A stretch of 20,293 nt of DNA, taken from IMG/VR virus record IMGVR_UViG_3300027970_000172, positions 1 to 20,293 of that record, one strand, 5' to 3'. Positions 1 through 13,228 of this stretch are shown piece after piece. Numbering within the stretch: position 1 is the stretch's first letter; each line of letters begins with the position of its first letter. Source of the stretch: a virus. The translations under genes were made by a program, and so were the position numbers. Under the pieces are notes generated by a model that ran no database searches, was not told the DNA's origin, and was given only the letters and a program-made list of their open reading frames with translations.

Positions 1-400
1 CGGCCAGGGAATCGGGCAACGCCAGCGGATGGGTGTTGGTGCCGGCCTCCACCAGATCCAACTGCACCCGCGCCACGCCGCCCTCGGCACTCGACAGCGC
101 GCTGCTGAAGCCCTGCACGCACACCGCTACCAGGCCATAGGTCGGATGCGTCAAGAGCCCGCTGCCGGAGGCCTCCAGCGCGGCCAGCAGCACCGCCAGA
201 TCGCGATCGTAATTCGGCCCGACCAGCACCGCCTCGATGGCGTAGGTGCGGGCCTTGCGGCCGAGGTCCTCGGCGTAGGGGATGTCGCGCAACGGGTATT
301 CGTGCACGGCGATGCGCCGCCCGCCCTGGCGGGTGTCTTTGGCGACGAAGAAACGCGCCCCGCGGAAGCTGGCCGGCAGCAGGCGGTCGCGCCAGCTCAT
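1..400 (-). CDS. N: Mu N-like DNA circularisation / tail protein, N-terminal part (runs off the window)
   Basis: Translation of the minus strand from the ATG at 400 gives 133 residues open to the window edge. It starts MSWRDRLLPASFRGARFFV and continues RRIAVHEYPLRDIPYAEDLGRKARTYAI, then VLVGPNYDRDLAVLLAALEASGSGLLTHPTYGLVAVCVQGF. This is the N-terminal domain of the Mu gpN / DNA circularisation family (SWRDRLxPASFRGVxFxV, E(Y/F)PxRDxPYxEDLGR, LxHPxxG). In Mu N is a tail/baseplate-associated protein. The start overlaps the tape measure TGA as ATGA. The C-terminal part is outside the window. Confidence 0.95.
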   Translation of the reverse strand, partial: MSWRDRLLPASFRGARFFVAKDTRQGGRRIAVHEYPLRDIPYAEDLGRKARTYAIEAVLVGPNYDRDLAVLLAALEASGSGLLTHPTYGLVAVCVQGFSSALSSAEGGVARVQLDLVEAGTNTHPLALPDSLA

Positions 401-2430
401 CAGAGGCCCCCCATGGTCGGACCGCGCTGGTCGGCGCTGGCGGCGATCTCCACCGGGCCGGTGGCACTCACCCCGGTGACCTGCGCCGGGCCGGTGACGC
501 GCACCGTGATGGTGCCGTTGATGTTCTGTAACTGGTTGGCGGCGGACTGCATGGTGTTGGCCGCACTCTGGGCCGCGTCCGCCGCTTGCTGTTGGGTCTG
601 CGCCGCGGTGCCGTGCTGTTGGGCGGCGGTGCTCTGGGTCTGCGCGGCGCTCGCCTGGGTCTGCGCGGCGGTGGTTTGCGCCTGGGCGGCGGCGGGGTCG
701 GGGGTGAGGGTGGGGACGGCCGGGCCGAGGTTGACCTTGCCGATGGGCTCCCAGCGCTGGGCGTTGGCGTCCGGGGTGACCGCCGCCGCGCGCCGCACCT
801 GCGCGGTATGCTCCTCCAGTTGGGCGGTGGTATTGCCCAAGCGCGCCAGCACGTAGCGCACCCCGGAATCGATGCCGTCCATGAACTTGGTGCCTTGGGT
901 CGCGCGGTTGGTGGCGTAGCCGGCCGCGCCGCCGACCGCCAGCGCCGCACCGCCCCAGCCCAACAGCCCCAGCGCGCCGACATTGCCGATGGCCCGGCCG
1001 AAGCCTTGCGCGCCCGCCTTGGTACCCGCTGCGCCACCCGCTTTGTCGGCCGACTTGCCGCCGCCGTCCGGGCCGTCGATCCCGCCGCCCGGCCAGTTGG
1101 TCACAAACACCTTCACCACCCCGGTGGCCGCGTCCAGCAGTCCACCGCCCGGTGCGCCCTGGCCGCCCTTGCCGCCCTTGCCGCCGAACAGGAAGCCCAG
1201 CGTCTTGGCCGTGAGGGCGATCCCGGCAATCGCCGCGCCCGCCGCCACCAGGCCCGCGGCGATCTGGCCGCCGATCAACACCAGCCGCTCGTTGGCCTGC
1301 ACCCACGCGCCCACCTTGCCGATGACCGCGTTCAGGTCATTGAGCAGCGGCTTGGCCCACTCCACCAGCGGGCCGGCCAGCAGTGCCGCAACGGTCTCGA
1401 TGGTCCCCATCAGGGACCCCCAGATGTTCTTGGTGTCGCCCAGAATCTCTTTCACCCGCTGTTGCAGGTTGGCCTGCTTGGCGAGCTCCGCGGTCCCCGC
1501 TGCCAGTCCACTGGCGCCGATCTTCACCACCTCCCCGCCGACCGACGAAATCCCGGAATCCGCCCCGAACAGATCGTTGAGGACCTTCAGCCGCTCCTCC
1601 GGGTTGAGCTTGCGCAGCTTCTCCAACTGCGCCATAAAGTGCTGAAGCCCCTTGTGCTGGCCGGTCTTCTTGTCCACGAAGTCGAGCGTGATACCAAACT
1701 TCTTCAGGCCCTTGTTGGCCTCATCGACCGTCTCGCGGTCCATCGACTTCATCAGCATCGAGCCAAAGGCGGTGCCGGTCACCTCCGCGGAGTTGGTGAT
1801 CTTGTTGAGCATCGAGTACAGGACGGTCAGCGATTGGCTCGCCTCCAGCCCTTGGATGTTGGTGGCCTTGATGCCGGCCGCCGAGCGCGCAAAGGTCATC
1901 TCCATGTCCGCGACGCTACTGCCGATCTTGGTCGCGCGCTGGATCACATCCAGGAACGGCATCATGTCCTTGGCGGCGACGCCGGAGCTCGCGCGCAGAT
2001 TGGTGGTGCTCTTGGCAATCGCCTCGTAGTTCTGCTTGGTCACGATTCCCAGATAGGCGGTCGAATCGCCCAGCCCATCGAGGATGTCTTGCACTGTCGC
2101 GCCGCCCGACAACATCACGTCGAACATGCGGTAAAAATCATTGGTGGTGCCCGGCAGCGTGGAGCCCAGGCGCAGCGCCTCGGCACTCAGCGCTTTGAAG
2201 GTCTCCGGCACCTTCCCGCTGCTGTCCATCAGCGTGGCGCGCAACCGCGTCGCCCCCTCGTCCAGGTCCGCATAGGCGCGGATCATCGGCGCCATCCCGG
2301 CCGCCAGCCCGGCCGCCAGCGCGCCCGCCTTGACGCCGATCGCGTCGAGGTTGGCGGCCAGCGTCCGCGCCGGACCGCTTGCGCGATCCACCAGCGAGAC
2401 GATAATGCCAAGGGTCAGGGCTGAACTCAC
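400..2430 (-). CDS. Tail tape measure protein
   Basis: A 676-residue protein that sets tail length. The N-terminal third matches phage tape measure proteins: SLVDRASGPARTLAANLD (a common opening), then AYADLDEGATRLRATLMDSSG, then AEALRLGSTLPGTTNDF and GLGDSTAYLGIVTKQN (TP901-type core). Two hydrophobic Gly/Ala-rich stretches lie in the middle (about 390-420 and 490-515), the second after a very Gly-rich linker. The C-terminal 100 residues hold Ala/Gln heptad-like repeats and a small beta end. The GTG at 2430 (VSSALTLG) is chosen because the family opening starts there and AGGTTA precedes it; the in-frame ATG at 2517 adds 29 residues unlike the family and lies inside the opposite-strand ORF. 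At about 0.15 nm per residue the tail would be near 100 nm. The stop overlaps N as ATGA. Confidence 0.92.
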   Translation of the reverse strand: MSSALTLGIIVSLVDRASGPARTLAANLDAIGVKAGALAAGLAAGMAPMIRAYADLDEGATRLRATLMDSSGKVPETFKALSAEALRLGSTLPGTTNDFYRMFDVMLSGGATVQDILDGLGDSTAYLGIVTKQNYEAIAKSTTNLRASSGVAAKDMMPFLDVIQRATKIGSSVADMEMTFARSAAGIKATNIQGLEASQSLTVLYSMLNKITNSAEVTGTAFGSMLMKSMDRETVDEANKGLKKFGITLDFVDKKTGQHKGLQHFMAQLEKLRKLNPEERLKVLNDLFGADSGISSVGGEVVKIGASGLAAGTAELAKQANLQQRVKEILGDTKNIWGSLMGTIETVAALLAGPLVEWAKPLLNDLNAVIGKVGAWVQANERLVLIGGQIAAGLVAAGAAIAGIALTAKTLGFLFGGKGGKGGQGAPGGGLLDAATGVVKVFVTNWPGGGIDGPDGGGKSADKAGGAAGTKAGAQGFGRAIGNVGALGLLGWGGAALAVGGAAGYATNRATQGTKFMDGIDSGVRYVLARLGNTTAQLEEHTAQVRRAAAVTPDANAQRWEPIGKVNLGPAVPTLTPDPAAAQAQTTAAQTQASAAQTQSTAAQQHGTAAQTQQQAADAAQSAANTMQSAANQLQNINGTITVRVTGPAQVTGVSATGPVEIAASADQRGPTMGGL
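596..700. repeat. 21-bp imperfect tandem repeat in the tape measure gene
   Basis: About five units of 21 bp (starting at 596, 617, 638, 659 and 680), each near GTCTGCGCGGCG plus 9 variable bases, coding seven-residue blocks of the form A-A-Q-T-Q-x-x. The blocks form an Ala/Gln helical stretch in the tape measure protein, TTAAQTQASAAQTQSTAA and onward. Unit number changes in multiples of seven residues would keep helix phase and change tail length slightly. Confidence 0.75.
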
Positions 2431-2652: not shown

Positions 2653-2710
2653 CGCAGGAACCCCAACGGGCGGCCACCGGGCCTGTTGGGGTTCGTTCCT
2701 CACCCCAACC
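2642..2710. repeat. Nested perfect inverted repeats between convergent stops
   Basis: Four related 9-mers occur in order: GGTTGGGGT (2642-2650), AACCCCAAC (2659-2667), GTTGGGGTT (2685-2693) and ACCCCAACC (2702-2710). The first and fourth are exact reverse complements, as are the second and third, so one hairpin nests inside another; neighbouring copies can also pair as two side-by-side hairpins. The array begins in the last codons of the plus-strand ORF and ends at the stop codon of the GpE-like frame. It could act as a bidirectional transcription end or an RNA-stabilising element. There is no T-run, so a classical intrinsic terminator is not shown. Confidence 0.8.
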
Positions 2711-3104
2711 TACGCCCCCGCCCACCGCCCGGCCTCCCCATGCCAGGCCAGCAACTCACTGACCTCCAGCTCCAGCAACTCGGACGGCGGCCAGTGAAAC
2801 ACCCCCGCCAAATCCGCGCTCAGGGCACGCCAGTTGGCTGGGCACCCGGCAAAAAATCCGCCACCGCCTGGCCCAGCCGGGTGAAGTCGCCGGCATCGAG
2901 CTGATCCACCTCCTTGGGCGTCAGCCCGGCCAGGGAGCCGATCAGCGCCGCGGTCTTGCCCACGTCGCCTTGGGCCGCATCGAGCAGCTTCAGATCCTTC
3001 ACCCGCGGGCGGCGCAGCGTCAGGTACGTGACCTCCTCGCCGTGCGCCTGGATCGGATAGGCCAGGGTCAGCCCCGTCTCTTGGTCGTTCGCTTGGTCGC
3101 TCAT
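2710..3104 (-). CDS. Predicted -1 frameshift fusion: gp41-like chaperone joined to P2 GpE-like extension
   Basis: Reading starts at 3104, slips -1 at T TTT TTG (2856-2850) and continues from GCC at 2850 to the TAG at 2710-2712. The product would be about 131 residues: 85 from the chaperone frame plus 46. The extension has ADLAGVFHWPPSELLELEVS and ELLAWHGEA, a clear match to the P2 GpE / E' layout (DIAxIFHWPPSxxxxMxLxELxxWHxxA). In P2 the E+E' fusion is made by the same kind of slip. The extension has no good ribosome site or start codon of its own near the motif, which supports fusion. The long and short forms together recruit tube and tape measure proteins in related phages. Confidence 0.85.
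2820..3104 (-). CDS. Mu gp41-like tail assembly chaperone (short, unshifted product)
   Basis: A 94-residue tail assembly protein of the Mu gp41/phage TAC type. Its core (ETGLTLAYPIQAHGEEVTYLTLRRPRVKDL, then AALIGSLAGLTPKEVDQLDAGDFTRL) matches the family: L-x-x-PI-x-x-xG-E-x-V-x-x-L-x-LRxP-x-x-xDL followed by a helical I-x-x-L-x-G-L-x-x-x-x-x-x-L-x-x-D-F/Y segment. These proteins bind the tape measure protein during tube assembly and are not in the finished virion. The final residues after Phe84 are read through a slippery T TTT TTG; most ribosomes should end at TGA 2820-2822. It lies between the tube and tape measure genes, as expected. Confidence 0.9.
   Translation of the reverse strand: MSDQANDQETGLTLAYPIQAHGEEVTYLTLRRPRVKDLKLLDAAQGDVGKTAALIGSLAGLTPKEVDQLDAGDFTRLGQAVADFLPGAQPTGVP
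2823..2847 (-). promoter_or_regulatory. Candidate frameshift-stimulating hairpin
   Basis: Starting 2 nt after the slippery site, GGGTGC (2847-2842) can pair with GTGCCC (2828-2823) using two G-U pairs. CCAG (2841-2838) then pairs with CTGG (2833-2830) around the loop CCAA, with one bulged C. If only the inner stem persists under the ribosome, the spacer is 8 nt, in the usual range. It ends exactly before the chaperone TGA. Confidence 0.5.
2850..2856 (-). promoter_or_regulatory. Slippery heptamer T TTT TTG for -1 programmed frameshift
   Basis: The minus strand reads GA-T-TTT-TTG in the chaperone frame. This is an X-XXY-YYZ heptamer with both tRNAs able to re-pair after a 1-base slip (TTT TTG to TTT TTT). 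It is the only run of six T in this gene. The -1 frame stays open to 2710 and codes the GpE-like motif. Confidence 0.88.
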
Positions 3105-3469
3105 AACTGTTCCTCAATCGACATCCCGCCAAATTTCACCTTCACCCCACCGTCGCCATCTTGCAGGTCCACCGCCGACTCGCACCAGGCGTGCCGCAGC
3201 ACGTAGGTCTTGCCGGTGTCGAGCTCCACCGTCACCGTGGCATCGGTGATCTGGTTGAGCGCGATCAGGGACAAGTCGGCGGTATCGGCCAGCGTGCCCT
3301 CCACGCTCGGGGCCACCGTCTCCTCGCTGAAGCCCCACACCTGGGCGCCCACCACCGGCTTGCGGCTGGTGCCGCCGATGCCGGCGACCGTAATCCCGGT
3401 TTTAGCGCGCAGTAAGGTGCCGTTCACATACACCCAAAACCGCCCGCTCGTCTGATAGCCGTTCGCCAT
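3101..3469 (-). CDS. M: Mu M-like tail tube protein
   Basis: A 122-residue tail tube subunit of the Mu gpM type. Visible features are RFWVYVNGTLLRAKTGITVAGIGGTSRKPVVGAQ (about 10-43), GFSEETVAPSVEGTL (about 46-60), a central D-x-x-L-I-A-L-N-Q-I-TDATVTVELDTGKTY stretch and the ending VKVKFGGMSIEEQ (family: x-V-x-F-x-G-x-x-x-E). It directly follows the sheath, the fixed order in contractile tails. It has the strongest ribosome site seen here, AGGAGG at 3475-3480, overlapping the L stop, in keeping with a high-copy protein. Its TGA overlaps the next ATG as ATGA. Confidence 0.93.
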   Translation of the reverse strand: MANGYQTSGRFWVYVNGTLLRAKTGITVAGIGGTSRKPVVGAQVWGFSEETVAPSVEGTLADTADLSLIALNQITDATVTVELDTGKTYVLRHAWCESAVDLQDGDGGVKVKFGGMSIEEQL

Positions 3470-3478
3470 GAGAACCTC

Positions 3479-4948
3479 CTACAACCGAAACTGCACGGCC
3501 GCGGCAAAGACGCGGAACTGGTTGACCAGGTTGGGCGGCAACAACGCATTCACCCGGTTCGGATCGCTGCCGCTACGCACCACCTGCAAGCCCTCGGCGA
3601 AGCCGGCCGCATCCTCCACCAAGCCGGCCTCCTCCAGATCCCGGAACAGCGCAATGAGCTCGGCGCGGATCAGCCGCGGCGTCGCAATCGCCTGTCCCGG
3701 CCCGAAGCGCGTGCCGTCATCGGCCAACTTGTGGCGCGGAAAGCGGGTGGCGATGCGCGCGCGCACCGCATAGCGGATGTAATCGGCCGTCCACTTGGTC
3801 TCCAAGTCCAGCAGCGCGGTATCGGCCACCCCGCCGGGCGTCCCCTGATAGGTGGTGATCACCCGCTCCAGGTAGGCCACCCCATCCGCGCCATAGATCA
3901 CCGTCGAGATGCCGTGATGCAGCAGCAGATCGCGCTCGGTACGGCTAAAGCGCTGCTCGACCGCCGGCGCCAGGAACCCCGGCAGGGCGAGTGATTGCAG
4001 CGGCCGGGCCGGATCGATCGACCCGTAATACTCACAGACCCCGGCCCAGGCCGCCGCCGCCTCGGCCGGCAGCGACGGCGAGCCGGCGGTGCCGAGCAGG
4101 CTCAGATGCGGCGAGTTGCGCGCATCCCCCAGCGCGATCAGTGCCGCGTGGGTGCCCGACACCGCGGCGAACCCATGGCCGGTGCGCTGCTCCAGCGGTC
4201 CCCAGCGCGAGTCCAGTTCGCTCTCCAAGGCTGCCAGATTGGTCGCATCGGTCCACGGCATCACCAGCGTGTAGAAGGGTTCCCCGGCGATTGCCGCCAG
4301 CGCATCCGTCACCGACGGATTTCCGGTACCGGAAACTCCAGCGGCCACCACCACCGTCAACCCGGCCGGCAGCGCCTCGCCCACCGCATACCCGATGCGC
4401 AGATCAATCCCGTTGCCGACCTCGCCCTTGTGGCGTGCCGTCACCGTCACCACCCCGGCGGCGGCGCTCGCCGTCACCGGCAGATCGCTCTGGCCATTGA
4501 TCGCCGCGGCCAGCGCCGTCGCGGTCGTCGCCACGGCTTGCCCGGTATCCACCGCCACCGCCAGCCGGGTGCCGGCCACCCACAGCGCCAGAGTTCCCGG
4601 CCCCGTCGACACCGTGCTCACCGTCACCGTCCAGGTGGCCGCCACCCCGCCGGCCCCATCCTCCAAGGCCACCGCCCACACCTCGCGATACTGGCCCGGC
4701 CCGGCGAACAGCGCCGCGCCCATCCGCGCCAGCATCGACCCGCGGCCGAAGTAGGTCTCGGCCTGGGCCGCGCGGGTGATCATCGTCGGCACCTCGGCCG
4801 CCACCGTGCCGGTCGCCAGCCGCTGACCCATCAGCAGGATGCGCCGATCCGGGATCGGCAGGCCGCCGACCGCGCGCGACGCATCGATCTCGATGTACTG
4901 CCCCGGCGTGCGCAGATCTAAAGGAATGTTCAGGCTCAGATCGCCCAT
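3479..4948 (-). CDS. L: Mu L-like contractile tail sheath protein
   Basis: A 489-residue sheath subunit. It begins with IPLDLRTPGQYIEIDASRA (family IPxxxRxPGxYxEID), then LPIPDRRILLMGQR and the AETYFGRGSMLARMGAALF segment at about 63-81. Strong family signatures follow: PFYTLVMPWTDATNLAALE (about 227-245), RDLLLHHGISTVIYGADGVAYLERVITTY (about 341-369), DIETKWTADYIRYAVRAR-like sequence near 382-399, and the C-terminal DPNRVNALLPPNLVNQFRVFAA. Presence of a sheath shows the particle has a contractile, myovirus-type tail. The length is normal. It starts 3 nt after the DUF2635 gene; its TAG is merged with the Shine-Dalgarno of the next gene. Confidence 0.95.
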   Translation of the reverse strand: MGDLSLNIPLDLRTPGQYIEIDASRAVGGLPIPDRRILLMGQRLATGTVAAEVPTMITRAAQAETYFGRGSMLARMGAALFAGPGQYREVWAVALEDGAGGVAATWTVTVSTVSTGPGTLALWVAGTRLAVAVDTGQAVATTATALAAAINGQSDLPVTASAAAGVVTVTARHKGEVGNGIDLRIGYAVGEALPAGLTVVVAAGVSGTGNPSVTDALAAIAGEPFYTLVMPWTDATNLAALESELDSRWGPLEQRTGHGFAAVSGTHAALIALGDARNSPHLSLLGTAGSPSLPAEAAAAWAGVCEYYGSIDPARPLQSLALPGFLAPAVEQRFSRTERDLLLHHGISTVIYGADGVAYLERVITTYQGTPGGVADTALLDLETKWTADYIRYAVRARIATRFPRHKLADDGTRFGPGQAIATPRLIRAELIALFRDLEEAGLVEDAAGFAEGLQVVRSGSDPNRVNALLPPNLVNQFRVFAAAVQFRL

Positions 4949-5160: not shown

Positions 5161-7848
5161 TCACCACAGTTTGTTGGGCTGCACATAGACCCAGCGCCCG
5201 CCGGGGATGCAGACATATAAGAAGGTATCGTCCCAGGCGTGCTGGCCTTCGATGCAAGTCTCCCCAGGGGCGGTCGGCGCAGCGGCGTACTGATACTGCC
5301 AGTCGAAGGCCGCCCCCGGCGCCCGGCGCAACGTCAGCAGTTCCGGCGCATGGGGCGGGATCGGCTCATGCGGGGTGACGGCAAACGTCACCGCCGCCCC
5401 ATCGCCGCCCTCGTGAAAGGCGCGCAGCGTCAGGGTGTAGCGCGTGCTGTTGGTCAGCCCGGCCAACACCAGTGGCGAGGCCGTGCCGGTCACACTGGCG
5501 CCGCCCGGTGTGGCGTCGATGCGATACCCCAAGAGCGGCAAGCCGCCGGTGTTGGTCGGCGGCACAAAGGCGACTTCGACCTGGGCATTGCCCTCGATCA
5601 CACTCACCCCGGTCGGCACCGCGGCCGGGCCGAAGGGGATCAGCACGCCCGAGGCCGTCGACCACGGCGACTGCCCCGCGCTACTGAGCGCCATCACGCG
5701 AAACTGGTACGACAACCCGGTCTCCAGGCCGGCGACCGTGCCCTCCACACCGCCCTCCAGCGCCTCAGTGAGGTAGGACCGATACGACAGGGCCGGGTAG
5801 TTCGACCAGTTCACCGCATCGGTCAGCTTGTACTCCACGGCGTAGTTCTCGATCACGCTGCCGACCGGCTCCAGCCAGCCCAGCTTGATGCTCACCGGGG
5901 TCGTGCTGCGCAACGTCGGCGCGGCCGGACTGCTCGGGATCGCCTGGATGTCGATCGCGCCGATGTCCTCGCCGTCCAGGCCGCTGCCGTCCAGATCCAG
6001 ATTCAGCGGGGTGAAGGCGTTGCGCAGGTAGTTCAGCGCCGACTGCACCACGTAGGAGGGCTTGAACACCTCGCCCGGCACGTTCTGGTTGCGCTTCTTG
6101 AACTCCTCCAGCGCCCGCGTCTCGCTGCCCAGCTCGTCGCCTTGCAGGTAGCTGTCCATGGTCGCGACGCGGGCCAGCTTGTTCTTGAAGCGCGGATCGC
6201 CCTCGCGATCGAACTTGCCGAACCCCTCGCTGACGCCTTCGGTCAGCAGATCGGACAGCACGCGGTACTTCACATAGTCGCCGCCGTTGTCGTTCCACCA
6301 CCAGGTGTAGTCGACGTACTTGAGCAGGTCGGCATAGTGCGAGCCGAGCCAGAAATTCTGATCCGAATAGCCGTAGTTGAGCGAGGCGGCGGAGTCGGCC
6401 ACCAGGTTGTTGGCGAACCGCAGATCGCCGTTGTGGTAGCTGGTCTCGCCGTTCCAGTACATCGCCCCCGGTGTGGTGCCGGCGCCTTGCGAGTAGAGGG
6501 TGTTGCGGCGCACCAGCACCTGGCAGTTCACGCTCTCCGGGTCGATGATGTCGCGGGTGCTGCCGCTGATCGACAGGCCGGCATTGACCGCCGTGCCCCG
6601 GCCCAGAAACAGGTTACGGGTCACCTCCACATCGGAGTGCCCCAGCATGATGATGTCGGCACCGCCGTCGGCGATGTCGAACACATTGTCATACACATAG
6701 TCCCACGGCCCTTCGCACACCGGGGTACCGACCCCGCGCAGCTTGATGATGTGGCTGTTGCTGCGCTGGGCCAGAAACAGATTGTCGTGCAGCTTCACGC
6801 CGCAGTACGACTGGAGTTCGGCGCCGGTAATCAGCACGTTCTGCGTGTAGAAGAACAGATTGTGGTGGATATCGTAGATGTCCGGGCCGATGCATAGCCC
6901 CGTGTTGGTCATGTAGATGCTGACCACATCCTGGAACACGTTATTCTGGATATCCCAGGTGCCACCCATCGAATTGAATTGGATTTGCCCGACCTCCTCG
7001 TTGCCGTAGGGGGTCCACCACACCACATTGCCCCAAAACCGCTGGTCGGTGCCCGGCTGGTGACTGACCTGGCGGCGGATGACGAGGTTGCCGTACACCC
7101 CCTTCGCCAACGGGTTCTGCCCGGAGAACCGAAAGTCGTTGTTGGTGATGCGCACGCCGGTCGCGCCTTGCATGTAGATGCCGAAGTCCAGGTAGCCGGT
7201 ACCGGCGAACAGGCAGTGATCGATCCACAGGCGCGCGATGTTGGTGCCCTTGAGCGGCAACACGATGCTGCCGTCCAGGTCGAAATCGGCATAGGCCCAT
7301 TGGATTTCCTCTTCCTGGCTGTTGGCGTTGCTGTTACCGGTGGCAATCCCGCTGCTGGCGGTGCGCCCGCGCACCACCGCCCGGTTGGTCGCGGTGCCGG
7401 CGATGATCCAACTGACCTCGCTGAGCACGGCGCCGCCGCTGGCCACGCCGCCGACGCGGTAGCTGTTGGCGATCACGATCCCGCCCGGCCCCTGATTGAG
7501 CCGGGCGAAGTTGTAGAGATACAGATCGTCGGTGACAGTGAGGGTCTGATTGGTGACACTGAGCGTCTGCCAGCCGCCGATGGTCGCGCCGCGCAGTTCC
7601 AGGCGCTGCACCGTCACCGGCACATCGACAATCACCGTCGCACCCCCGGTCGAGGCCAGGATCACCTCGTCATCCGCCGTCGGCACCGTCCCGGTATCCC
7701 ACAGCGTGGGGTCGGACCAATTGCCGCCGCCGTTCTTGGTCATCGTCACCGTGGCCGCCGCCGCCGGGTTGAGCCACAGCAGCCACGCCAGCACCAGCGC
7801 GGTCAGTCCCACCGGGATCAGCAACAGTCGTTTCACGTCGGCACCCAT
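5161..7848 (-). CDS. Large right-handed beta-helix protein with signal peptide-like N-terminus and two FN3 domains (tailspike-like)
   Basis: An 895-residue protein. Residues 5-32 (VKRLLLIPVGLTALVLAWLLWLNPAAAA) look like a Sec signal peptide with an A-x-A-type cleavage site. Residues about 190-490 carry repeated N-N/H-x-F turns (ITNNDF, IQNNVF, HHNLFF, HDNLFL, YDNVF, TRNLFL, RRNTLY, ANNLV), typical of a parallel beta-helix of the pectate lyase/NosD kind. Residues about 490-635 are helical and acidic, ending DLDGSGLDGEDIGAID. Two fibronectin type III domains follow (about 640-738 and 744-828). The C-terminus AWDDTFLYVCIPGGRW is a fibre-tip motif. The ATG at 7848 overlaps the previous gene by 16 nt; GTG at 7836 would give MKRLLL and a 4-nt GTGA overlap and is equally likely. 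A signal peptide is unusual for a virion spike. Polysaccharide binding or cleavage is inferred; catalytic residues are not identified. Confidence 0.8.
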   Translation of the reverse strand: MGADVKRLLLIPVGLTALVLAWLLWLNPAAAATVTMTKNGGGNWSDPTLWDTGTVPTADDEVILASTGGATVIVDVPVTVQRLELRGATIGGWQTLSVTNQTLTVTDDLYLYNFARLNQGPGGIVIANSYRVGGVASGGAVLSEVSWIIAGTATNRAVVRGRTASSGIATGNSNANSQEEEIQWAYADFDLDGSIVLPLKGTNIARLWIDHCLFAGTGYLDFGIYMQGATGVRITNNDFRFSGQNPLAKGVYGNLVIRRQVSHQPGTDQRFWGNVVWWTPYGNEEVGQIQFNSMGGTWDIQNNVFQDVVSIYMTNTGLCIGPDIYDIHHNLFFYTQNVLITGAELQSYCGVKLHDNLFLAQRSNSHIIKLRGVGTPVCEGPWDYVYDNVFDIADGGADIIMLGHSDVEVTRNLFLGRGTAVNAGLSISGSTRDIIDPESVNCQVLVRRNTLYSQGAGTTPGAMYWNGETSYHNGDLRFANNLVADSAASLNYGYSDQNFWLGSHYADLLKYVDYTWWWNDNGGDYVKYRVLSDLLTEGVSEGFGKFDREGDPRFKNKLARVATMDSYLQGDELGSETRALEEFKKRNQNVPGEVFKPSYVVQSALNYLRNAFTPLNLDLDGSGLDGEDIGAIDIQAIPSSPAAPTLRSTTPVSIKLGWLEPVGSVIENYAVEYKLTDAVNWSNYPALSYRSYLTEALEGGVEGTVAGLETGLSYQFRVMALSSAGQSPWSTASGVLIPFGPAAVPTGVSVIEGNAQVEVAFVPPTNTGGLPLLGYRIDATPGGASVTGTASPLVLAGLTNSTRYTLTLRAFHEGGDGAAVTFAVTPHEPIPPHAPELLTLRRAPGAAFDWQYQYAAAPTAPGETCIEGQHAWDDTFLYVCIPGGRWVYVQPNKLW

Positions 7849-8468
7849 TGGTTGTCAATCACCTGCAACAGCGCGCCAGCCGGCGCATCGCCCACCGCCG
7901 GCCAGGCCGCCGCGCTCGGCCGCCCGGTCGTCGGCACCCACCCGCCCGCCGTCTCCACCATCCACACGCCGTCACGCACCGTCACCATGGCCCCATCCGG
8001 CAGCCCGGCCGGGTCCGGAAACGGGTCACCGCCCGGCAGCGTGCCCACCGCGGCCCAGCCGGCGGCCGTCGTCACCGCCCAGGCGCCATCGCGCACCGCC
8101 AGCAGCGCCCCCTGCGGCAGCCCGGCCGCCGCCGGCAGCAGCGCCTGCCCGGCGGGCGCCGCGACGCTGGCCACCGCCGTCCATAACCCGCTGATCGCCG
8201 CCACCGTGCCGGGCGCGCGCACCGTGGCGCCCAGCTCATCGGCCAGCGCCGGCCGCGGGCCGTCCGCCGCCGGCGCGACCAGCGCCGTGCGCAACACCGT
8301 ACCGCCAGGCGCCAGGCGCACCGGCGCCAACACCTGCGGACCGGCCGCCGCCGGCCCGACCCGCACCGGCACCCGCGGGGCCGGCGGCCACACCCGGATG
8401 ACGCCGGTCATGGGCTGGCGGTACAGCACGTACTGCGGAGTCTGCCCGCGCAACTGCAAACTCTTCAT
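7833..8468 (-). CDS. Repeat protein in the adhesin cluster, function unknown
   Basis: A 211-residue protein I do not recognise as a whole. The N-terminus (LRGQTPQYVLYRQPMTGVIRVW) is basic and beta-like. The C-terminal half has three diverged repeats of about 35-40 residues: AGLPQGALLAVRDGAWAVTTAAGW (115-138), AGLPDGAMVTVRDGVWMVETAGGW (154-177) and GDAPAGALLQVIDNQWVP (193-210). Each has P-x-G-A-x-x-x-V-x-D/N-x-x-W, a layout common in short phage fibre modules. I see no signal peptide, membrane segment or catalytic motif. The ATG at 8468 overlaps the gp37-like stop as ATGA. Its TGA overlaps the following beta-helix gene. It may serve as an adapter for that protein. Confidence 0.65.
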   Translation of the reverse strand: MKSLQLRGQTPQYVLYRQPMTGVIRVWPPAPRVPVRVGPAAAGPQVLAPVRLAPGGTVLRTALVAPAADGPRPALADELGATVRAPGTVAAISGLWTAVASVAAPAGQALLPAAAGLPQGALLAVRDGAWAVTTAAGWAAVGTLPGGDPFPDPAGLPDGAMVTVRDGVWMVETAGGWVPTTGRPSAAAWPAVGDAPAGALLQVIDNQWVPT

Positions 8469-9073
8469 GGTGCAAACGCGTCCGGCGGCACCCGCACCAG
8501 CGTCACCCCGGCCTCGGTCGTGCCATCGGCCGGCGCCAGATCCAGGTCCGCGGCAAAGTGGGCGAACTCGGCCAGGTTGTCCGGCAGCGTCTCCGCCAGG
8601 TCGTGCGTCAACGCCACCTGCACCTCCACCAGCGTGGCGGCCAGTTCTGTCAGTGCCGTGCCCTCCAGCGGCGCCAGCCCGGTCACCGTCAGCGTGCCGA
8701 TGCCAAGCAGCGTGTGATCGTGCAGCGCCACCGCGACCGCCTCCGCCAACGCCAAGGCGCCCGGCGCCGCCGCGGTGCCGCGCCGCCGCACCAACTCCCC
8801 GGCGCTCGCCTGAGTCAGCACCACCAGCGACCAGGAGGAGGTGAAGCGCGCCCCCGGCGGGCCTTCCACGCGGCCGTCGCGGATGCGGTCGGGCGGGCGG
8901 GCACTGCCGCGCCACACCGCCAGCACGCAGGGCGGCTTGGCGCCGTGCGCGGCCAGCACCGCGGCCAATTCCCCGAAGCCGCCGGGCAGCGGCACATAGG
9001 CGCGCAGCAGCGGCCCCAGCAGTTGCGCGGCGCGGGCCAGCAAGCGGTCTTCGATGTCGACTAAGACACTCAT
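8465..9073 (-). CDS. Mu gp37-like neck/tail terminator-type protein (DUF1834)
   Basis: A 202-residue protein of the Mu gp37/DUF1834 type. It begins MSVLVDIEDRLLARA, followed by YVPLPGGFGEL. The middle has a Trp-containing beta strand (VLAVWRGSARPPD) and FTSSWSLVVLTQ, then a long helix (GALALAEAVAVALHDHTLLGIGTLTVTGLAPLE) that fits the family. In Mu this gene directly follows gp36 and precedes gp38; here adhesin-like genes flank it on both sides. The ATG at 9073 lies 3 nt after the glycine-rich gene stop. Its stop overlaps the following gene as ATGA. A head-tail joining role is taken from position and family. Confidence 0.78.
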   Translation of the reverse strand: MSVLVDIEDRLLARAAQLLGPLLRAYVPLPGGFGELAAVLAAHGAKPPCVLAVWRGSARPPDRIRDGRVEGPPGARFTSSWSLVVLTQASAGELVRRRGTAAAPGALALAEAVAVALHDHTLLGIGTLTVTGLAPLEGTALTELAATLVEVQVALTHDLAETLPDNLAEFAHFAADLDLAPADGTTEAGVTLVRVPPDAFAP

Positions 9074-9076
9074 CGG

Positions 9077-10087
9077 CTAGATCCCGTCGATCGCCACGCG
9101 GCCGGCCCCGCCGGCCCCGCCGGCCCCCGGCAGCGCCGGACTGATCGCCGCGCCGCCGCCGCCGCCGCCGCCGCCGCCCGCTCCGCCGGCCCCGCCGGCC
9201 CCGCCGTTGGCGCTGAGGCTCGACCCCCCGCCGCCGCCGCCGCCGCCGCCGGCATCCACAAAGGGCGTCGCCAGCACCGCACTGCCGCCCGCCGTGCCGG
9301 CGACCCCGACATCGCCATAGGCGCCGCCCGCAATCACCGGCTGATCGCTGCCATCAGTGAGGACATACTGCGCCGCGGCGCGGCCGACATTGCCGCGGTA
9401 CGCCGTTGGCGCGGTCGCCAGACCGCCGCCGGCACCGGCGCCGCCGCTGGCCAGGCCGACACCGTAATTGCCGGTATTGCCGACCGCCCCGCTGGCCCCG
9501 GACCCGCCCATCCCGCCGGTGAACACCGCGGCCCCGGCCGCCCCGGCCGCGGCGATGCCGGTCGCACCGGCCCCGCCGCCGCCGCCGCCGCCGGCCCGCC
9601 AGGTGCCGACTTTCGAGGCCCCGCCGGCGCCGCCCGCCCCCGCGGTGCCGCCCGCGCCGCCGGCCCCGACACTCCACGCCAGCGTCGCCGGCAGCGTCTC
9701 CCAGGGCACCACGATCTGGGTCCACCCCCCGCCGCCGCCCCCGCCGCCGCCCGACACCGCGGTGCCGGCCGCGCCCAGGGCATAGCCCCGACCGCCGCCG
9801 CCGCCGCCGCCGCTCAGCGTGATGATGGCGGTCCGGTACGCGCCGGCCGGCTTGGTCCAGGTGCCGCTGCCGCTGGATTGCTCCCAGTGATAGGGCGCGT
9901 CGAGCGCGCCCGCGGGGCCGGGCGGCCCCTCGGGTCCTGCCGGCCCTGCCGGCCCATCCGGACCCGCCGGTCCCGGAATCAACGTGCCCTGCTCGGCCAC
10001 CAGCACCCACCGCGCGCCGGTCCACTCCAGCATCCGCTGGCCGACGTTAAGGCGGTCGCCTGGTTGGGGATTGGCTGGCAGGTCCAT
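9077..10087 (-). CDS. Glycine-rich phage fibre/adhesin with collagen-like neck
   Basis: A 336-residue protein. Residues 1-32 have a GDRLNVGQRMLEWTGARWVLV module (P-x-x-GD and W-x-G-x-x-W) typical of phage fibre starts. Residues 39-60 are about seven Gly-Pro-X triplets. From 70 the sequence is a glycine-rich domain: WTKPAGAYRTAIITLSGGGGGGG, then repeated runs of 7-9 Gly separated by beta-forming segments, ending GRVAIDGI. The W-x-x-P-A-G-x(5)-I-x-L-x-GGGGGG pattern is a known layout of glycine-rich tail-fibre proteins. Polyglycine sandwiches also form the receptor-binding tip of the T4/S16 gp38 type adhesins, though homology to those is not claimed. It starts 3 nt after the previous stop, inside the neck gene region. 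Confidence 0.8.
   Translation of the reverse strand: MDLPANPQPGDRLNVGQRMLEWTGARWVLVAEQGTLIPGPAGPDGPAGPAGPEGPPGPAGALDAPYHWEQSSGSGTWTKPAGAYRTAIITLSGGGGGGGRGYALGAAGTAVSGGGGGGGGGWTQIVVPWETLPATLAWSVGAGGAGGTAGAGGAGGASKVGTWRAGGGGGGGAGATGIAAAGAAGAAVFTGGMGGSGASGAVGNTGNYGVGLASGGAGAGGGLATAPTAYRGNVGRAAAQYVLTDGSDQPVIAGGAYGDVGVAGTAGGSAVLATPFVDAGGGGGGGGGSSLSANGGAGGAGGAGGGGGGGGGAAISPALPGAGGAGGAGRVAIDGI
9152..9178. repeat. GCC trinucleotide repeat coding for polyglycine (one of several)
   Basis: Nine uninterrupted GCC units on the plus strand code nine Gly on the minus strand. Similar GCC runs occur at about 9230-9250, 9573-9595, 9733-9750 and 9792-9811 within the same gene. All are in frame, so slipped-strand gain or loss would alter the length of the polyglycine segments without breaking the gene. 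They are GC-only repeats and may be prone to sequencing error. Confidence 0.85.
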
Positions 10088-10090
10088 CGC

Positions 10091-11491
10091 TTAGCTCTGC
10101 GGCCGCACGAGGATGGCGGCGTCGTAGGCCGGCACGATGACCTCGGTCAGCACGGCGCCGTTATTCACATCGTCCTGGGTGCCCGCAATGCGCTGGAACG
10201 TGCCGCCCAGCGCGATCGTGCGGCTGGTGGGCGTGGCATTCACCACCACCACCGCCTTGGCGAAGTCGCGGCGGAACACGTCCGCATTGGCCGCGAACAG
10301 CATGATCCGATCCATGTTGATCGTGCTGGTAAACATCGCGCCCACATCCAAGCGTAGTTGCACCGTCTCACTGGCCGTGCTGGTGAAGGTCCAGAGCAAT
10401 TTGTTCCAGCCCGGTCCGCAGAACAAGCCGCCGCTGATCTGGCTGCCGAAACGGGGGAACAGCAGCCCTTCGCGCTCCGCGTACACCGCGAGCGACAGCG
10501 TATATTGGCGACCGGCAGTCAACGTCACGCTCGGCCCCAAGATAAACGCCGCATCGTTGGTCTGCCGCGCGTCGGCCGTGATCACCGCCCGCAGCGAGGC
10601 GCTGCCCTCGATCGCCCGCGTGGTGTCGCGGCTGAGCACCGCGCGCGTGGGCGTGGCCTCGATCACGTGCAGCCGATCGGCATAGGCCCGCACGAACCCA
10701 CGGTTATATTGGTGTTCGGCGTGCGCGGTGCCGAGCGCCAGCGTGATCGTGATCGCCGGGGGATTGCTCCAGTCATAGGTCAGCAGGCTGCCTTGGATCA
10801 CCGGCGCCACCAGCGGATTGCCGCGACTGATCAGCGTGCTCTGATCGCCGAAGCCCACGGCGGCCGGCCCCCCCACGCTGACGATGGCCTGCCCATAGAG
10901 CACGGCCGTGGCCGCGCCCGCCCGAATCAGTTGCAGCTCGATGATCATGGGCCGCTGCGAGGCGTGCGCATTGATGTTGCTCACATCGTCCTGGAACACC
11001 ACGGTGCCGCCGAGCGCGATCGACAGGGTGAATTGCGAGGTCGCACCCGCCGCGGTGGTGTTGAAATAGCTGCCGACACAGAGGATCGTGACCGCCTCGC
11101 CGACCGTGGGGGCCACCCCTGTCGGCGGTGTGATGGACGCGATAACGGTCGGCGCGGTGCTGTTGACGATCGGCAGGGCCGCGGTCAGCAACGTCGCATA
11201 GGGCGGGGGCAGCGTGCGCAAATTGGCCCCGCCCACAGGGTCCAGCTCACCCTGTGCGTCGGCGTGCAACAGCTTCAGATCGGCGATGTTCTGCCAGGTC
11301 ACCGCGGCGCGCGCAATGCTGGCCGTTGCCGCATCAGCAAACGCTGAGACCGGCTCGAACGCGGCACTGTTCAGACCCAGCGCCGTCTGCTGGTCGATCA
11401 CGTTCTCTTGCACCGCCAGCGCATAGCCGGCCGCTTTCACCGGGGCCGCGGCCCCGGTGTCCGGGTCGATCAAGCCAAGTTTGTCTGCCAT
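10091..11491 (-). CDS. Beta-rich virion-associated protein with carbohydrate-binding-like segment
   Basis: A 466-residue protein with no catalytic motif that I recognise. Residues 1-95 are helical and could be an attachment domain (MADKLGLIDPDTG, then Ala-rich helices). Residues about 110-270 are a beta-sandwich-like region. Residues about 285-400 resemble a CBM4/9-type or galactose-binding-like sandwich: GSASLRAVITADARQTNDAAF, then LTAGRQYTLSLAVYAE, then WNKLLWTFTSTASETVQLRL and a closing MDRIMLFA. The last 50 residues (VVVNATPTSRTIALGG, VNNGAVLTEVIVP, DAAILVRP) resemble the small C-terminal sandwich of some glycoside-hydrolase-like proteins, but no hydrolase domain precedes it. The start has GGAG overlapping the upstream TAG. 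Sugar binding on the host surface is an inference. Confidence 0.6.
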   Translation of the reverse strand: MADKLGLIDPDTGAAAPVKAAGYALAVQENVIDQQTALGLNSAAFEPVSAFADAATASIARAAVTWQNIADLKLLHADAQGELDPVGGANLRTLPPPYATLLTAALPIVNSTAPTVIASITPPTGVAPTVGEAVTILCVGSYFNTTAAGATSQFTLSIALGGTVVFQDDVSNINAHASQRPMIIELQLIRAGAATAVLYGQAIVSVGGPAAVGFGDQSTLISRGNPLVAPVIQGSLLTYDWSNPPAITITLALGTAHAEHQYNRGFVRAYADRLHVIEATPTRAVLSRDTTRAIEGSASLRAVITADARQTNDAAFILGPSVTLTAGRQYTLSLAVYAEREGLLFPRFGSQISGGLFCGPGWNKLLWTFTSTASETVQLRLDVGAMFTSTINMDRIMLFAANADVFRRDFAKAVVVVNATPTSRTIALGGTFQRIAGTQDDVNNGAVLTEVIVPAYDAAILVRPQS

Positions 11492-11503
11492 CCGGCGGCG
11501 CTC

Positions 11504-12238
11504 CTAAAACGTAAATTCCGCCGCGGCCCGAACCCAGGCCGCGCCGACATAGCGATACCAATACGGCGCGGTCCAGGCCGCCCCGCCGGGCCAACCCACC
11601 GACTGCGGCGCCAGCGCCGCGTCGCTCCAGACCGTTTCCACCGCCCAGCGAATCCACTGGGCGCTGGCCAGGCATTCATACAGATACCCCGCGACCAGGC
11701 GGATATCGCCCACCGTGCCGGGGGCGGTCGGCGTCGGCGCCCCGTCAATCGCCGGCCACATGCGCTCCGGGGCTTGGCGCATCCACACCGCGGTGCCGAC
11801 CGCGACATACCGATAGATCCCATCCCAGGCCGTCTGCCCGCGTGTGCCAGGCGCCGCACTGGTCGCCGGCACCGCGACTGCCGGGGCGAACAGGGCGGGC
11901 CAATACCACTGCGTGGGCACCCCCAACAGCAGCGCATCGGCCAGGCTGGGCAGCCACTGACCGGTCGTGGGATCGCGCACATACAGGCACAGCCCGCCGG
12001 GCACCAGCGCCGGGTCGGAGGTGTCGAACCACAGCCGATAGGCCGCGGCCGTGGGCGCGCTGAGGCCGACCCATACCGCGCTCGCGCCGGTGTCGGCATA
12101 GGCCCCGGCGGCCGTGCCGACCGCCAGCACGCCCTCATCGGTGATCAAATACGGCTCGCCGGCCGCCAGGGCGTTCGCCGCCGCCGCCGCCGCGAGCTGG
12201 GCGCGCGTCCCGCGCTTGACCCGAATCCGCTGCGCCAT
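11504..12238 (-). CDS. Trp-rich fibre-like protein with repeated C-terminal Trp/Tyr motifs
   Basis: A 244-residue protein. The N-terminus (IRVKRGTRAQ then LAAGEPYLITDEGVLAVGTAAGAY, about 24-47) carries the same attachment-type motif as the previous gene (EP-x-x-x-TD-x-G-x-L), so the two are likely distant paralogues or share a module. From residue 55 the protein is a series of Trp/Tyr-rich units: LCLYVRDPTTGQWLP (84-97), AWDGIYRYVAVGTAVWMR (137-154), VAGYLYECLASAQWIRW (182-198) and APYWYRYVGAAWVR (224-237). This motif also closes the large beta-helix protein of this cluster. Such units look like small beta modules at the tips of phage appendages. It starts 6 nt after the previous stop. Confidence 0.7.
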   Translation of the reverse strand: MAQRIRVKRGTRAQLAAAAAANALAAGEPYLITDEGVLAVGTAAGAYADTGASAVWVGLSAPTAAAYRLWFDTSDPALVPGGLCLYVRDPTTGQWLPSLADALLLGVPTQWYWPALFAPAVAVPATSAAPGTRGQTAWDGIYRYVAVGTAVWMRQAPERMWPAIDGAPTPTAPGTVGDIRLVAGYLYECLASAQWIRWAVETVWSDAALAPQSVGWPGGAAWTAPYWYRYVGAAWVRAAAEFTF

Positions 12239-12244
12239 GATGGG

Positions 12245-12697
12245 CTAGAAGGTCCCGCCGTCGATCACATCCACCGCCAACGCCATGAACGCATTGCCCG
12301 CATCCTTGGTCAGGGCGATCGAGGCCGAGCCGCGCAGCACGCCGTCGCTGCCGTCGGTGCCCCACAGATAGCCGGCCGTCCCGCCGGCCACCGCGGCCAC
12401 CTTCTCATCGGTCGAGCTGGCCGGGATGTTGAGCGCCGTCTTGAACGCGTTGACGGTGATCTTGGTCTCTTTCTGGCCGGCGCCCGAAGCATCGTGGATC
12501 AGCAGGAAGTCGGCGGCCCCATCGACCGCGGGGATGGTGGCCAGATCGTCGAGCGCCGGCACCACCGGGATCCGCGTGGTGCCCCCGGTGGCCAGGTGCA
12601 GCGTGCCGCGGTCGGTCGTGACCAGCGGCTCGCGCGCCAACAGGCTGCTGTTCGGCAGTGCGGACTTGAGGCCGCCGCGCAGTTGAATACGTGCCAT
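12245..12697 (-). CDS. Short phage fibre-like protein (N-terminal attachment motif, IDGGTF end)
   Basis: A 150-residue protein. Its N-terminus (LLAREPLVTTDRGTLHLATGGTTRIP, residues about 19-44) has the L-x-x-x-E-P-L/Y-x-x-T-D-x-G-x-L pattern seen at the start of many phage fibre and tropism proteins, where it docks to the particle. The middle (ADFLLIHDASGAGQKETKITVNAFKTAL, about 61-88) is a short segment common in phage fibres. The end is ALAVDVIDGGTF. A clear GAGGA lies upstream of the ATG in an 18-nt spacer. It is much shorter than a full receptor-binding fibre, so it may be an adapter or head fibre. I cannot assign a receptor. Confidence 0.7.
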   Translation of the reverse strand: MARIQLRGGLKSALPNSSLLAREPLVTTDRGTLHLATGGTTRIPVVPALDDLATIPAVDGAADFLLIHDASGAGQKETKITVNAFKTALNIPASSTDEKVAAVAGGTAGYLWGTDGSDGVLRGSASIALTKDAGNAFMALAVDVIDGGTF

Positions 12698-12715
12698 GAA
12701 TCAGGTCCTCATCAA

Positions 12716-13228
12716 TCAGAAAACGCCGCCGTCGATTGCCCCAATCAGGTTCTCAGCAGCGAACACGTCGGCGCGCACGCCGCGCGGGTCGTAGAGCACC
12801 GCCTGCATGTCCCCGTCCGCGCCGGGCGGCCCCATCGGCCCGGCGGCCCCGGCCGGCCCGGCCGGCCCCATCGGCCCCGCCGGCCCCTGCGGCCCGGTGG
12901 CCAGCGGGGCTGCCGCCACCAGCGCGCGCAGCTCCTGCACCTGCGCGCTGTCGGGCACCTCGATGCGATAGCGCGTGGTGTAGCGCGGGGTGGCGAGCTC
13001 GATCGCGTAATAACTCGGCGCCCCCTCCGGCAGCGCCAGCCCCGCGTTGGGCGGCAGGTCCACCAGCGCATCCGCCGTCAGGTCGCGGCGGACCAGCACG
13101 TGGCGCAGCGCCTCCTGCGCGAAGCCCAGCACTGGCGCCCCGGCCGCATCGACCAGGCTGATCTTCAAGCTGACCGGCCCCAACTCGCCGGGCGCGGCGG
13201 CCGGATACGGGATGCGCACCTGTGTCAT
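12716..13228 (-). CDS. Collagen-like phage fibre or head/neck appendage protein
   Basis: A 170-residue protein. Residues 1-95 are beta-rich (VRIPYPAAAPGELGPVSLKI, APSYYAIELATPRYTTRYRI). A short helix at 95-108 leads into about nine Gly-X-Y triplets at 112-139, rich in Gly-Pro-Ala and Gly-Pro-Met. This can form a collagen-like triple helix, as in many trimeric phage fibres. The C-terminus (VLYDPRGVRADVFAAENLIG) ends in AIDGGVF, much like the VIDGGTF end of the next gene. It begins 9 nt after the gp36-like stop. It may be a trimeric spacer or adapter for the downstream fibre proteins. Receptor or partner is unknown. Confidence 0.75.
   Translation of the reverse strand: MTQVRIPYPAAAPGELGPVSLKISLVDAAGAPVLGFAQEALRHVLVRRDLTADALVDLPPNAGLALPEGAPSYYAIELATPRYTTRYRIEVPDSAQVQELRALVAAAPLATGPQGPAGPMGPAGPAGAAGPMGPPGADGDMQAVLYDPRGVRADVFAAENLIGAIDGGVF

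Follow-up and report, generated by a model that had tools for sequence, protein, structure and literature searches.

A P2-type −1 frameshift predicted in the tail assembly chaperone gene of an uncultured Mu-like phage

Does the short gene between the tail tube and tape measure genes of an uncultured Mu-like phage encode one tail assembly chaperone or two, and to which tail system does it belong? The window, that is, the whole stretch of 20,293 nucleotides of virus record IMGVR_UViG_3300027970_000172 that was analyzed, carries a Mu-like late operon on its minus strand. The operon includes head genes similar to those encoding gpF, virion morphogenesis protein, protease, and gpT (PF04233, PF05069, PF10123, and PF10124), and a gp37-like gene. 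The tail sheath gene at 3479–4948 (minus strand; phrog_165, E = 8e-182) encodes a protein with 41.4% identity to Mu gpL over its full length. The tail tube gene at 3101–3469 (minus strand) belongs to the Mu gpM family (PF10618, E = 9.8e-30); its PHROG, phrog_185, is common to the window tube and Mu M, and P2 FII does not match it. The chaperone gene follows, and its location between the tube and tape measure genes matches known cases (PMC3091744). The tape measure gene at 400–2430 (minus strand, GTG start at 2430) is of the P2 T type and matches phrog_26612 (3.7e-51), phrog_28, the family of P2 T (2e-34), and phrog_973, the family of Mu gp42 (8e-7). Downstream of it lies the start of a gene for a DNA circularisation protein (DNA_circ_N, minus strand; PF07157, 2.7e-30), which, with a sheath of the Mu L family and a tube of the Mu M family, places the tail among those of Mu-like phages. 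Because both the chaperone and the tape measure have P2-type profiles, the P2-type stretch spans these two genes, and Mu-type genes resume at the DNA circularisation protein.

The 0-frame of the chaperone gene (2820–3104, minus strand) encodes a 94-residue E-type protein (PF10109, E = 8.6e-22; phrog_166, 7.5e-20; phrog_103, 1e-11), and its ATG overlaps the stop codon of the tube gene by 4 nt. The heptamer T TTT TTG at 2850–2856 (minus strand) is read in the 0-frame as GAT TTT TTG and is thus in phase for slippage, and the distance from the heptamer to the end of the 0-frame stop codon is 30 nt, as had been pointed out in an initial annotation of this DNA. The −1 frame extends from 2850 to 2710 (minus strand; GCC GGG TGC ... 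TAG, with the TAG at 2710–2712), and a −1 slip would give a fusion of 131 residues. The GpE-like motif noticed earlier in this frame corresponds to a P2 GpE (E′) domain at 2731–2817 (minus strand; Phage_P2_GpE, PF06528, E = 1.6e-11). The domain also matches phrog_6416 and phrog_1756, the P2 E′ families, which the P2 E′ protein itself matches. Counted over both strands, the 20.3-kb window has two copies of T TTT TTG, compared with 0.27 expected, and this count together with the strength of the PF06528 match indicates that the slip site is not a product of chance. The hairpin that the initial annotation had placed directly after the slip site does not stand out from dinucleotide shuffles, with z-scores of +0.47 and +0.49 for folds of 60 and 90 nt. 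Therefore, a hairpin stimulating the frameshift was rejected, with z of about +0.5. An AlphaFold model of the window chaperone alone had a pLDDT of 51 and was left unused.

Relatives were collected using the sheath as bait from viral contigs, genomes (the best 80 of 375), and named phages, which provided 133 loci; since the sample is defined by similarity to the window sheath and includes best matches only, counts derived from it are not natural frequencies. The chaperone is E-type in 69 loci and gp41-type in 57, and none was recognized in seven. Where the tail domain of an E-type chaperone was detected, it is in the −1 frame in 62 of 62 loci, near-copies included. After the removal of near-copies, 52 distinct E-type loci remained, and 50 of these have, within the overlap, a phase-0 heptamer of the form X XXY YYZ, compared with 3.3 expected from codon shuffling. 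The remaining two phases contain a heptamer in three and zero loci. T TTT TTG itself is present in 32 of the 52 loci (0.29 expected), and the substitutes T TTT TTC, C CCT TTC, G GGA AAG, and G GGT TTT preserve the pattern of tandem slippage; in two of the 52, the −1 domain is retained although a canonical heptamer is lacking. In ten independent pairs of relatives, the region read only in the −1 frame has a pN/pS of 0.29, which indicates that the −1 domain is under purifying selection. These broader pairs were used because the window and its nearest relative, locus L058, have too few changes for a selection test: the same region differs by 6, 4, and 4 changes at codon positions 1, 2, and 3, and the lack of a third-position excess is partly due to the divergence of the 3′ ends at a repeat insertion. 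The retention of the slip site, of its phase, and of the −1 domain among relatives, a check that had been suggested together with the proposal of a P2-type −1 programmed frameshift, strongly supports that proposal.

The closest relative with a named host among the matches listed is locus L058, a prophage of Lamprocystis purpurea DSM 4197; the sheath identity is 99%, and the nucleotide identity is about 94% over most of the shared stretch. A REP/REPIN-like inverted repeat at about 2642–2714 of the window has 55 matches in the L. purpurea genome and is missing from the prophage copy. In the lineage of the window, the repeat was inserted at the end of the −1 frame, where it appears to supply the stop codon. 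Its distribution suggests a Lamprocystis-like (Chromatiaceae) host. Being a host repeat element that the nearest relative lacks, it was rejected as a part of the frameshift signal.

Several other origins of the −1 product can be weighed against ribosomal frameshifting. In the −1 frame of the window, a TTG and a GTG follow the 0-frame stop, and at least one ATG, GTG, or TTG occurs in the examined stretch in 21 of the 52 relatives, as might be the case for a separate gene with its own start that is translated by re-initiation after the 0-frame stop. However, such a codon is absent from that stretch in 31 of the 52 relatives, and a separate gene would have no need of the in-phase heptamer that 50 of them retain, which makes re-initiation very unlikely. 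Relatives encoding the two frames as separate genes, which the initial annotation had named as evidence against the frameshift, were looked for, and none was encountered among the relatives. Slippage of RNA polymerase on the run of six T would result in an identical protein; however, the heptamers of 11 of the 50 relatives are not single homopolymer runs (C CCT TTC, C CCT TTG, C CCT TTT, G GGT TTT, A AAT TTT, G GGA AAG, and G GGA AAA). Such heptamers fit tandem tRNA slippage and not polymerase slippage, which is considered slightly less probable than re-initiation. The least probable of the alternatives is a chance slip site with a decaying, remnant −1 frame. A hairpin no stronger than chance and the host repeat that landed at the end of the frame could be read in this way, but the in-phase conservation in 50 of 52 loci, the low pN/pS, and the domain match argue against it.

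The last alternative concerns the chaperone itself, the first half of which had been described as gp41-like, so that an N-terminal half from Mu gp41 and a C-terminal half from P2 E′ would be joined inside one gene. PF10109 is an umbrella model, "E, or 41 or 14", that Mu gp41 reaches weakly (2.5e-5), and therefore it does not separate P2 E from Mu gp41 and leaves room for such a chimera. By contrast, Mu gp41 matches phrog_508 and PF23746 (Gp41_Mu) at 6e-49 and 9e-35, whereas the profile search of the window ORF, with E-values up to 1, gave no match to either; its matches are to the P2 E families, including phrog_103, which P2 E also matches. The gp41 profiles score 66–136 bits with gp41-type chaperones and none with the window ORF, and the E-type versus gp41-type scores are clearly bimodal across 126 loci, with L064 being the sole in-between case. 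The tail of the Mu −2 product matches phrog_12783, whereas the −1 part of the window matches both P2 E′ PHROGs. By these profiles, both halves of the chaperone belong to P2-type families: the suggested comparison of the halves recovered GpE for the −1 part and no gp41-specific family for the 0-frame part. An internal Mu/P2 chimera is thus extremely improbable and was rejected as refuted, for practical purposes, by the family profiles. The mosaic of Mu and P2 proposed in the initial annotation is real at the level of the operon; however, its boundary is between the tube and the chaperone and not within the gene. The ORF, heptamer, −1 frame, and GpE-like motif described there were upheld, whereas the gp41-like assignment and the hairpin were not. 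The window ORF is nearer to phrog_166 than to phrog_103, which is P2's own, and "P2-type" therefore does not imply acquisition from P2; it is used here as a label for a protein family, not for a source.

The gene very probably gives rise to two tail assembly chaperones through a P2-type −1 slip, as a part of a cassette within a Mu-like operon. Both chaperones would begin at a single start codon. The majority of ribosomes would terminate at 2820 and release the short E-type protein, and a minority would slip by −1 at T TTT TTG and continue into a fusion ending in the GpE (E′) domain. The synthesis of the fusion, its ratio to the short form, and its binding partner are predictions made from sequence. 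If the products act as in lambda G/GT and P2 E/E+E′, the short form may coat the tape measure protein, and the fusion may recruit tube subunits. Both halves of the chaperone and the adjoining tape measure gene would constitute a P2-type (E-type) cassette in an otherwise Mu-like tail operon, and the textbook P2-type frameshift would be extended to an uncultured Mu-like phage. The lambda G/GT system resembles the window in having a short and a −1-extended chaperone encoded between the tube and tape measure; however, its protein families and slip sequence differ from those of the window.

According to the account of Christie et al. (2002) given in PMC3091744, gene E of P2 is expressed as E and E+E′ by a −1 slip at T TTT TTG. 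The P2 gene is like that of the window in its heptamer, frame, both protein families, position of the site before the tape measure, and lack of a downstream hairpin. The heptamer is found in the context GGT TTT TTG in P2 and GAT TTT TTG in the window, P2 reads VIFHWPPSELYPMSLTELITW where the window reads GVFHWPPSELLELEVSELLAW at the matching place, and the motif FHWPPSEL is common to P2 E′ and the −1 frame of the window. By contrast, the P2 sheath FI and the gene in the tube position, FII, belong to phrog_23 and phrog_55, families different from those of the window. Furthermore, gene T of P2 starts within the end of E′, whereas about 280 nt separate the −1 frame from the tape measure in the window. 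The Burkholderia P2-like phages KS5, KS14, and KL3 conserve the TTTTTTG site and the E/E+E′ arrangement without a hairpin (PMC3091744), and KS14 is a direct tblastn match; however, these phages have complete P2-like tails, unlike the Mu-like tail of the window.

Phage Mu has the same operon order, sheath and tube families, and flanking DNA circularisation protein gene as the window; however, its chaperone (phrog_508/PF23746), −2 slip at CGG GGG CGA, tail domain (phrog_12783), and tape measure (phrog_973) are different. The statement of the initial annotation that Mu was proposed to use another slip agrees with the literature, in which a −2 slip has been described (PMC2628397, PMC5009743), and with the Mu sequence, which contains CGG GGG CGA. 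The Mu-type −2 slip was not encountered in the window, where the tail domain is in the −1 frame. Among gp41-type chaperones (L075, L016, L019–L021, L023–L027, and others; L051:1553–1987 in Mu), the slip site is a run of G, and its register goes with the direction of the slip. Class B has CTG GGG GAA or a similar site and the tail in the −1 frame (28 of 33 loci). Class C has CGG GGG CGA or a variant and the tail in the −2 frame (11 loci), which is open for 45–69 codons and is the longer frame in 11 of 11.

The genomic setting of the window is unusual, yet it already exists in deposited phages. Bordetella phage PY223 and Pseudomonas element DVM-2008 (GenBank) have an E-type chaperone alongside a Mu-like sheath, DNA circularisation protein, and gpP; the slip site is T TTT TTG in PY223 and T TTT TTC in DVM-2008. 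The annotation of both lists the short 0-frame product alone. In the deposited Mu-like phages of this kind that were inspected, the −1 product is thus overlooked, as the short one alone is annotated.

Within the sheath family, the chaperone and tape measure appear to move as a unit, a cassette that exists in two alternative kinds, E-type and gp41-type. In a tree of 112 sheaths, the chaperone label requires at least 17 changes by parsimony, and the E-type group requires 12 when well supported branches alone are counted; the tube tree, which is poorly resolved, requires 15. The trees are quick maximum-likelihood trees calculated without bootstrap. A gp41-type prophage of Rhodocyclus tenuis (L075) and an E-type prophage of R. 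gracilis (L081) share 95% identity along a 6.3-kb stretch that ends about 10 nt into the chaperone gene. The two are unalignable through the chaperone and tape measure, and an identity of 94% returns 123 nt upstream of the tape-measure stop. The tubes match in 114 of 116 residues, and the cassette is entirely different. The same pattern was found in three further pairs. Exchange of the sheath as the cause of the mixed sheath tree was rejected for L075/L081, L091/L028, L022/L027, and L039/L076 because identity continues on either side of the cassette. The median coverage of the interval from the chaperone to the tape measure is 0.4% in 25 E-type versus gp41-type pairs with alignable tube regions, compared with 40% in E-type and 92% in gp41-type pairs of one kind. 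In the closest eleven pairs, the left break falls within a range from 7 nt upstream to 12 nt downstream of the tube stop. Of the 16 pairs in which the return of identity could be placed, 12 have it 25–126 nt upstream of the tape-measure stop. Of the 99 loci with a match, 98 have a best tape-measure relative of their own chaperone class, and in the four pairs examined the best profile of the tape measure is phrog_28 in E-type partners and phrog_973 in gp41-type partners.

It is somewhat more probable than not that the chaperone and tape-measure body of Mu-like tails constitute an exchangeable cassette of two kinds that has been swapped repeatedly next to a near-identical tube. The E-type cassette would use a −1 slip and the gp41-type a −1 or −2 slip, and the junctions would be the tube stop or chaperone start and about the last 8–42 codons of the tape measure. 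The binding partner of the short chaperone in lambda is the tape measure, and that of the frameshift extension is the tube (PMC5009743). Inheritance of the chaperone and tape measure as a matched pair fits the binding of the short form to the tape measure, by analogy with lambda. The exchange of cassettes would imply that the frameshift domain recognizes a feature of the tube that suits both cassettes or that there is no specific recognition of the tube. We infer that tube recognition is either degenerate or mediated by a feature common to both extensions. A near-identical tube that works, or at least persists, with two unlike extensions tests the tube-binding part of the lambda model, and such tubes are a natural experiment on the old question of what the frameshifted extension targets. 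The parts of the literature on tail mosaicism that were consulted contain general statements (for example, PMC2647930); the cassette-exchange pattern was not found in them, and its novelty is not certain.

The chaperone genes of L004–L006 differ strongly from that of the window in their first part and are nearly identical in the rest, as if a further exchange junction were possibly located inside the gene. The loci with no chaperone of either type recognized beside the sheath are L017, L018, L046, L065, L100, L127, and L130; in L017, L018, and L046, unrelated sequence appears to interrupt the tail operon after the tube.

In the gap that separates the chaperone from the tape measure, the plus strand, opposite to that of all the tail genes, carries a strongly hydrophobic ORF of 70 residues (2440–2652) that starts 9 nt from the tape-measure start. 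It has no PADLOC match and no clear PHROG family. Both L058 and L004 have an intact copy of the ORF, in which most changes are synonymous (nine synonymous and three non-synonymous between the window and L004). Antisense hydrophobic ORFs of similar appearance occupy the same gap in the E-type cassettes of L013, L028, L039, L081, and L083, and longer ones in L096 and L099; gp41-type cassettes have none except for a weaker candidate in L085. The HK97 gp15 moron has the same position but is on the sense strand, and homology between the two was rejected since there is no sequence similarity. Between the major head gene and the sheath, the window has a large block of fibre-like, glycine-rich, and collagen-like genes together with one for an 895-residue protein with fibronectin type III domains (5161–13228, minus strand), a position that is unusual for fibres in a Mu-like genome.
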